Shown piece after piece: positions 14,831 to 24,406 of a DNA stretch of 32,545 nucleotides. Origin of the DNA: Desulfuromonas sp. (GTDB lineage Bacteria; Desulfobacterota; Desulfuromonadia; Desulfuromonadales; BM515). The position numbers and the translations under genes are program-made. The DNA is taken from assembly GCA_002869635.1 (NCBI GenBank), contig PKUF01000085.1, positions 1 through 32,545 on the forward strand. Reading direction: 5' to 3'. The notes under the pieces are model-generated. The model saw only the letters and a program-made list of their open reading frames with translations. It searched no databases and was not told the origin of the DNA. The first letter of the stretch is position 1. The number at the start of each line of letters is the position of its first letter.

Positions 14831-15931
14831 TTAGTGGGCGTCGTGCACTGCCGCTTGTCCCCCAAGGAGGGAACGACATTCGTTAAGAATTCGTTGGGCG
14901 GCACCAAGGTGGCCCAGGGAGCGGGCGGCGTCGGCCATATCCAGCAGGCGTGTACGATCCCGCAGCAGATCGGCCACCAGCTTGGCGAGGGTCTCTCCAT
15001 CAAGCTTCGACTGGTGAAGCAAGAGCGCCGCCCCCCGTTGCGCCATTGCCGATGCGTTGGCCGTCTGATGATCGCCGGCGGCGTAAGGATAGGGGATGAG
15101 CAGCGCCGGACGACCACAGGCCGTCAGTTCGGCGATGGTTGTCGCCCCAGCCCGACAGAGCACCAGCTGATGCTGAGCATAGGCACCCGCCATATCGTCG
15201 ATAAAGGGGAGAACTTTCACCTCCTCGCCCCATCCCGCTTCGGCATAGCCTTGACGAACCGCGGCGCAATCTGCTTCACCGGTTTGGTGCAATATCCGCA
15301 ATTGCCCCTTGAGTGTCCCCCAGTGCGGCAGGGCCGCGAGCAACGCCTCATTGATCGCCTTTGCCCCACGACTGCCGCCAAAGACAAGCAGGTTCATCCC
15401 GTCGGGATCGAGAGGAGGGCACTCCTCCATCCCAAGCCGCAAGGGGTTACCGGTCAGGACCGTTTTGGCGGTGGGAAAAGCGCCGCGCGCCTCGTCAAAG
15501 GAGAGGCAAATCCGTCGCGCCAGAGGCGCGAGCAAGCGGTTGGTCAGCCCCGGCCAGGCGTTCTGTTCGTGCACCAAGGTCGGCAGCCGCAGCAGCCAGG
15601 CCGCAAAGAGAACCGGACCGGCGGCATAACCACCGACGCCGACCACCACGTCAGGACGAAAACCACGGAGCAGTTTAATCGACTGGGTGATACTCTTGAT
15701 GAGTCGCGGCAGTAGCGCCAGCTTCCCCAGCGCTCCCTTGTCGACGAGACCGACGATATCGATGGTCGCCAACGACAGATTGAGCTTTGGCAGCACCTTC
15801 ACCTCGATCCCACGTTTGGTTCCGACAAAGAGTGTCTCAGCTGCCGGATCCTCAGCGAGAAGCTGTTGCGCCAGCGCCACCGCCGGGAAGAGATGTCCAC
15901 CGGTACCACCACCGGCCAGAAGCAGTCTAAT
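14831..15931 (-). CDS. murG: MurG glycosyltransferase with an apparent ATT start codon
   Basis: Transfers GlcNAc from UDP-GlcNAc to lipid I to make lipid II at the inner face of the membrane. The family N-terminus, RLLLAGGGTGGHLFPAVALA, is intact in this frame, but the codon where Met should be is ATT at 15931-15929. It is preceded by AGGAGG with a 7-base spacer, an excellent ribosome site. Starting at the next candidate, GTG 15880, would delete the essential GGGTGGH loop. From ATT the protein has 366 residues, normal for MurG, with GGSRGAKAINEAL and the C-terminal AELTACGRPALLIPYP donor-binding motif present. The expected overlap ATGA with ftsW reads ATTA here. AUU is a known rare start (infC), or this is a base error or mutation. 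Confidence 0.93.
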   Translation of the reverse strand: MRLLLAGGGTGGHLFPAVALAQQLLAEDPAAETLFVGTKRGIEVKVLPKLNLSLATIDIVGLVDKGALGKLALLPRLIKSITQSIKLLRGFRPDVVVGVGGYAAGPVLFAAWLLRLPTLVHEQNAWPGLTNRLLAPLARRICLSFDEARGAFPTAKTVLTGNPLRLGMEECPPLDPDGMNLLVFGGSRGAKAINEALLAALPHWGTLKGQLRILHQTGEADCAAVRQGYAEAGWGEEVKVLPFIDDMAGAYAQHQLVLCRAGATTIAELTACGRPALLIPYPYAAGDHQTANASAMAQRGAALLLHQSKLDGETLAKLVADLLRDRTRLLDMADAARSLGHLGAAQRILNECRSLLGGQAAVHDAH

Positions 15932-22424: not shown

Positions 22425-24406
22425 TCAGGTCGGCGGGGCGAGGCGCACCCAGACCTCATCGCCATAAACAATCTCTTGACCGGCCAATGGCAACTGCTCC
22501 ACCACCCGGCCACTACCGATCAGACGAATATTGAGACCATCCCGCCCCATCACCCGCAACACTTCACGGCTGCTCATCCCGGCGAAATCGGGCATCAACG
22601 GATGTTGCGCCGCATCCATCCCTTTTTTCGTTGCGACTTTCGCCACGGGGCGGGCTGATTTTTCAATGATCCCTTCGATGGTCGGTTCTAGCGCCACCAG
22701 CTGCTGCGGCTGAGTCGCCGGCACCTGCAAATAGCGCAACGACTGAGCTGCGATCTGCGAGAAAATTGGCGCAGCGACCAGACCACCATAGGTCTGCTCC
22801 TGTGGCTCATCAAGAAGAACCAAAATCACCAACTGCGGCTCCTTCGCCGGAACAAAACCGACAAAGGAGGAGACCCGCTTATCCGGCGAATATCCTCCGG
22901 TCACCGGATCGACCTTCTGGGCGGTGCCGGTCTTACCAGCCACATCGTAACCAGGGACATTAGCCAACACCCCTGTCCCCTCATCATCGGTGACCGTCGT
23001 CAGCATCGTCGATAAACGGCTCGAAAGCTCGGGCGGGATAACCTGACGAACCGCCCCCCCCCCCCCGCTTCAAGGAGGTGACCTTCGCGGTCTTGTGCCT
23101 TAAGGACGATCTGCGGCTTCATCAAAATACCACCGTTGGCAATCGCCGCTGTCGCCATCGCCAACTGAATCGGGGTGACCGAAACCCCCTGACCAAAAGA
23201 GATCGCGGCAAGATCGATCTCGAACCATTTGGAGGGAGAACTGAGCAGCCCGTTGACCTCACCGGGAAGATCAATGCCGGTTCGATCTCCAAAACCGAAC
23301 GCCTTGAGGTAACGGTAATAGCGCTCGCGTCCCAATCCCTGCCCCAGCTTAGCGGAACCGATATTGGAACTAACCTGCAACACCTGAGTCGGGGTCAGTG
23401 CCCCGTAGCGACGATGGTCATGGATCGTCTTGCCACCAACTCGATAGGAACCGTTTTCGCAGTTGATCCGCTTGCCGGGGATCGCGACCCCTTCATTGAG
23501 CGCCGCCGCCATCAAAAACATCTTGAAGGTTGAGCCTGGCTCAAAGGTATCGCAGACCGCCCGGTTGCGGCGGGTTTCAGGACGGAAAGAGCCAGCAGCG
23601 TTGGGATTGAAATCAGGCAGACTCGCCATAGCGAGAATCTCGCCGGTCTCTGGCGCAACGACAACGACCGTCCCCGCCTTGGCCCGAGCGCTATAAACCC
23701 CGGCTGCAAGCTCCTTCTCAGCGATATATTGTAGATTTTTATCGATAGTCAGATAGAGATCGCCCTGAGGTCCATCTCCTTCAATCTGCTGTGCGGCCTG
23801 TCCGAGACTTCGTCCTTTGTGGTCATTTTCGCTGATCAGGCGCCGCTCATCACCGGCGAGAAGAACGTTGTAGCGCAGTTCAATCCCTTCTAACCCCCGT
23901 GGATCAACGCCTGTGAAACCAACAACCTGTGAAGCGCTCTCCGAATTGGGATAGAAACGCTGATGTTCTCGATGAAAACCGATCCCCGGAATCTCAAGCA
24001 ACCGGATCTTTTCGATTATCGCCGGCGCAACCTGACGCTTGAGCCAGTAAAAGTTCTTCGATGAGACAAGACGGGCCTGGACGGTTTTTTCATCCATCTC
24101 AAGCAGAGCTGCAAGCTGGCGCGTCTGCTCCGGCGTCGCCTTCACTTTCCGCGGATAGACACAGACGGACTCAACCTCAACACTGATCGCCAACGGCTCG
24201 CCGTTACGATCGAAGATCGTGCCACGTTGCGGTGTTAACGTGACAACCCGGGCATACTGCTTGTCGGCTTGCTTATCCCAGTTTTCACCGGAGGCGATCT
24301 GCAGGTAGAAGGCACGTCCAACAACAAAGACAAAAGCAACCAGAAAGAGAATCCCGATCGTCTTGACCCGCACACGCGCCCAACTCTCCCGCCCGCCACG
24401 CATCAT
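22425..24406 (-). CDS. ftsI: FtsI/PBP3 peptidoglycan transpeptidase, frameshifted at a G13 tract
   Basis: Septal class B penicillin-binding protein. The first part (24406 down to the tract) has a membrane helix at about 15-33, a dimerisation/pedestal domain, catalytic Ser292 in STFK and SSN at 346-348. The second part has KTGTAQKV and a C-terminal PASTA domain (PDFAGMSSREVLRVM to DEVWVRLAPP), as in Desulfuromonadales-type FtsI. The two parts are in different frames. The first runs off frame in a 13-base C run (23054-23066; G13 on the coding strand) to a stop at 23000. A tract of 14 or 11 would restore one protein; with 14 it has 660 residues. Both halves look under normal coding constraint, so the gene is probably functional in life. 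It overlaps ftsL by ATGA. Confidence 0.93.
23054..23066. repeat. 13-base C homopolymer inside ftsI
   Basis: Thirteen consecutive C on the + strand, read as G13 (poly-Gly) in ftsI. It lies exactly where the reading frame is lost, between the KPQIVLKAQDREGHLLEAG and AVRQVIPPELS segments. This is the longest homopolymer I found in the window. Confidence 0.97.

Follow-up and report, generated by a model that had tools for sequence, protein, structure and literature searches.

A run of 13 G that breaks the ftsI reading frame in a draft Desulfuromonas genome points to a miscounted homopolymer

The closest described proteins to the one considered here are class B penicillin-binding proteins (PBPs) of the FtsI/PBP3 type with a C-terminal PASTA domain (SpoVD-like). 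These combine PBP_dimer and transpeptidase domains, carry the motifs SxxK, SxN and KTG, and are encoded in the dcw cluster. Like dxs, ftsI is normally essential. Poly-G switching of surface genes is found in Campylobacter and Helicobacter as well as in Neisseria. In Neisseria, such switching is known to work through replication slippage at the G tract; tracts of at least nine G are treated as phase-variable, and the rate rises with tract length (PMC5953494). Genes expressed through slippage or corrective frameshifting, such as Thermus dnaX and the pseudogenes of Buchnera and Blochmannia, also have a homopolymer at the break while the gene looks constrained, and the known bacterial cases involve A/T runs. 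Homopolymers are also a technical problem, since the accuracy with which short reads report run length drops as runs grow, already at eight bases (PMC11140927).

The window analysed here is a stretch of 32,545 nucleotides from the draft genome of an uncultured bacterium. Its minus strand carries a complete dcw cluster, from rsmH to ftsZ, with ftsI between ftsL and murE. Direct reading and a pattern search found exactly 13 C on the plus strand at 23054-23066, and thus 13 G on the coding strand, inside ftsI. The features concerned are as follows:

23067-24406, minus strand: 5' part of ftsI, with the membrane segment, PBP_dimer (PF03717) and the transpeptidase domain (PF00905, profile positions 1-189) with S292TFK and S346SN, from Pfam matches and motif positions
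23054-23066, minus strand: the G13 tract in the SSN-KTG linker, which breaks the frame, from direct reading and pattern search
23000-23002, minus strand: premature stop of the 5' frame, from the open reading frame 23000-24406
22425-23053 (the start of this part is approximate), minus strand: 3' part of ftsI in another frame, with the end of the transpeptidase domain (PF00905, profile positions 214-298), KTGT and PASTA (PF03793)
15928-15931, minus strand: ATTA at the ftsW/murG junction, the second anomaly of the cluster, from comparison with 29 relatives

The 5' frame (23000-24406) encodes 468 aa, with STFK at residue 292 and SSN at residue 346. Beyond the tract it meets its stop after about 18 codons, and KTG and the PASTA domain are encoded in the other frame. 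The contig accordingly holds no single continuous ftsI frame, and one Pfam Transpeptidase model is divided between the two pieces (profile 1-189 and 214-298). Tract position, gene anatomy and residue numbers agree with a preliminary description of this DNA, as does its calculation that 11 or 14 G would rejoin the halves. By sequence, both halves are normal class B PBP: PBP_dimer and a transpeptidase domain with SxxK, SxN and KTG are all present, though over two frames. The gene differs from FtsI/PBP3-type (SpoVD-like) proteins in that its frame is broken in the contig and that it encodes an Ala-poly-Gly linker, not a polar linker with a near-invariant proline. Membership in FtsI rests on homology, and we judge the frame break to be artefactual. 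The mRNA directly before the tract (window about 23067-23085) reads GGTCACCTCCTTGA, a near match to the 3' end of 16S rRNA (anti-Shine-Dalgarno); GGTCACCTCCTTGA is probably a coincidence of the Gly-His-Leu-Leu-Glu codons found there.

The preliminary description called this the only ftsI, and a single FtsI was indeed found in the genome; a search of its 2.39 Mb in 138 contigs revealed no second copy, a statement limited by the 73.9% completeness of the assembly. The best other transpeptidase match is PBP2, which adjoins RodA. Two more matches are long open frames of 866 and 781 aa, which we take to be class A PBPs. Across the order, ftsI was detected at the threshold used in 127 of 136 genomes, with a single match per genome. 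A contig scan and an order-wide search found no genome of the same family, and the best identity was 58%.

We compared the segment between SSN and KTG in the 53 distinct relatives in which it was readable. Of these, 51 have a spacing of 146 aa, one has 145 and one has 147. In the window, tracts of 11, 14 and 17 G would give 145, 146 and 147 aa, respectively. Considering that the spacing is nearly fixed at 146 aa and that 14 G yields exactly this value, the contig looks one G short, and 14 is likely the true count. None of the 53 relatives has the tract, nor any run longer than eight in this segment; in their alignment, G13 falls over a polar, variable linker. It also replaces a proline that is conserved in 50 of 51 relatives, which makes even the G identity of every base uncertain.

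The complete ftsI genes of the relatives are all open, with two exceptions: a one-base break in a draft metagenome-assembled genome (MAG) and one internal TAA. The first, in SZUA-540 (L090/L204, QKGY01000412.1; G042 apparently holds the same contig as L090), lies shortly after SSN and is not at a homopolymer. It indicates that such breaks do occur in draft genomes of this order. The second is an in-frame TAA in the otherwise conserved ftsI of G045 (C78, L205). Comparison with relatives had been put forward earlier as a check, and its outcome points to an error.

We also asked how strongly the two halves are constrained. Private changes at otherwise invariant columns number 4 of 131 in the 5' part of ftsI, 2 of 63 in the 3' part and 68 of 2266 in the whole cluster. 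By these equal rates, conservation does not differ between the two halves, and ftsI is not decaying, since a long-broken gene should show more changes behind the break. The 68 changes in the window are the most among the compared sequences (the next has 60), a number compatible with a lone family-level lineage and with no flood of substitution errors.

Other artefactual-looking breaks are present in the same assembly, a fragmented draft of 138 contigs at 74% completeness. We examined its joins in sampled stretches and searched for run patterns genome-wide. In the sampled stretches, contigs are joined at a single N, and at several of these joins the same 7-9 bases occur on either flank. One such N (L022, position 1703) interrupts dxs in contig C34, and its flanks nearly repeat each other; here an essential gene has been broken by the joining of contigs. 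Contig C40 opens with C19 followed by T6, and its first gene, read by eye, seems to change frame twice. Contig C23 has a G10 after a GT repeat, ending at N. The ftsI break resembles those in SZUA-540 ftsI and in dxs of its own genome in being a single-base break in an intact-looking housekeeping gene, but it differs from draft-MAG breaks of this kind in its position, which is a homopolymer rather than an N. Head-to-head joining of poly-G read tails was considered as a cause and rejected, as a run of G would then pass into one of C instead of consisting of G throughout.

Another anomaly lies 7 kb away in the same cluster, at the ftsW/murG junction. Here the window reads ATTA (15931-15928), where 29 of 29 relatives have the ATG of murG, which in nearly all of them shares the sequence ATGA with the ftsW stop. 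This one-base difference affects two more essential genes: ftsW loses its stop and reads on beyond the normal end, and murG loses its ATG and has ATT in its place, behind a good Shine-Dalgarno sequence. Going by the relatives, ATTA is probably a base error; it is possibly a real, rare ATT start. For two such anomalies 7 kb apart in the dcw cluster, errors in the consensus are a simpler explanation than a biological cause.

To place G13 among the G/C runs of the genome, we searched for all runs of at least nine. There are 55 in 2.39 Mb: 41 of nine, 11 of ten and one each of 11, 13 and 19. The run of 19 stands at a contig end, which leaves G13 as the longest internal run. Extrapolation of the decay in run length gives 0.2-0.45 expected runs of at least 13, compared with two observed (one at the contig end). 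A chance G13 is thus not wildly improbable, and the expectation is not decisive. GGG is the commonest glycine codon in the cluster (212 of 568), so that glycine-rich spots easily form G runs. Of the runs of 9-11, 38 of 53 lie within stop-free frames of at least 150 aa, which suggests that shorter tracts are mostly read well. A G10 in contig C76 (3259-3268) divides a gene of glycosyltransferase family 9 (heptosyltransferase) between two frames, one matching profile positions 5-145 before the run and the other 151-238 after it. This class is often phase-variable; phase variation may explain the break, as may a miscount of the kind proposed for ftsI. Contig C76 (47 kb) as a whole is enriched in G runs of at least nine, with 1.1 expected and a Poisson probability of 2e-5 for eight, a slightly generous figure because the run list gives seven separate runs. 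Three of the C76 runs are inside one UbiA-like gene.

The frame break probably arose because the bases of a long G run, itself real, were miscounted in a draft assembly that contains errors. This reading is favoured by the fixed spacing, the lack of decay and the other breaks in the same assembly. It was the first option listed in the preliminary description, and the relatives, the 146-aa spacing and the other artefactual breaks all favour it. Weighing against a miscount are the good reading of most runs of 9-11, the absence of an N at G13 itself, and the loss of the conserved proline to the tract. Alternatively, the tract may truly be long and unstable, with a population of mixed lengths from which the assembly caught a minority or intermediate length. 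Cells with the tract in frame would divide, while out-of-frame cells would continually be made by replication slippage and then lost; the tract would impose a mutational load or, in an essential gene, form a contingency locus by accident. The tract, in a reading frame, is longer than the nine G from which tracts in Neisseria are treated as phase-variable (PMC5953494), the broken family 9 gene offers a parallel within the genome, and the shorter tracts are mostly in frame. As in the poly-G contingency genes of Neisseria, Campylobacter and Helicobacter, a tract of more than nine G lies in an open reading frame and is found out of frame. Unlike those surface genes, ftsI encodes an essential enzyme of the cytoplasmic membrane, whose off state would bring no benefit as off cells could not divide. 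The relatives lack the tract, and unrelated breaks of artefactual look occur in the same assembly. We therefore regard a length-variable population as unlikely. A literature search joining ftsI, phase variation and homopolymers found no paper. Quite unlikely, too, is a working stochastic on/off element, in which slippage at a long SxN-KTG tract would shed non-dividing cells or, at a low level, set the dose of FtsI.

Recoding would instead require a tract truly fixed at 13, on which either slippage of RNA polymerase or a -1 frameshift of the ribosome yields full-length FtsI. An all-G run permits re-pairing in every frame, and herpes thymidine kinase shows compensatory frameshifting, at a low level, on a run of seven G (PMC5009743). 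Slippage by RNA polymerase, one of the options raised in the preliminary description, is unlikely because published homopolymer insertions, in the transcriptomes of E. coli and Buchnera, occur in A/T runs only, with none on G/C (PMC5574713). The ftsI run is G only, neither an A/T run of about nine or more nor an efficient slippery heptamer (PMC5574713, PMC4066793), and G_GG.G_GG.U is the weakest heptamer in the absence of a stimulator, at 0.018% (PMC4066793). Folding of the RNA 3' of the tract revealed no stimulatory structure there, as it is no better folded than shuffled sequences (z 0.93, 0.36 and -0.67), and the arrangement is conserved in no relative. With a homopolymer at the break and a constrained gene, ftsI does resemble known slippage and corrective-frameshift genes, but those lie on A/T runs, whereas ftsI has neither a stimulator nor conservation. 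Recoding is therefore very improbable. We give as little credence to a true loss of ftsI, its function having passed to a different protein or to a second ftsI that the assembly lacks. The completeness of 74% leaves room for a second copy, but the equal constraint on both halves, the position of ftsI within an otherwise complete dcw cluster and the single match per relative at the threshold used all argue against this.

If the G run was miscounted, the organism would have an intact ftsI, with a linker of Ala-(Gly)n-Ala encoded by GGG codons. We infer that the true tract would most likely be 14 G, the contig having one G too few. In that case FtsI would be a division transpeptidase of full length and ordinary type. 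The miscount may have arisen through polymerase stutter in the reads or through contig ends joined inside the G run.

It would be surprising to find a core division enzyme controlled by a hypermutable or leaky switch, as it would be were the tract really 13 or mixed in length. Taken together, the sequence evidence favours a miscount of the G run over a new control of cell division. As the evidence stands, this locus serves as a caution: when a single gene looks anomalous in a draft MAG, the conservation of spacing and the other breaks of the assembly should be checked first, and a mechanism proposed only afterwards.
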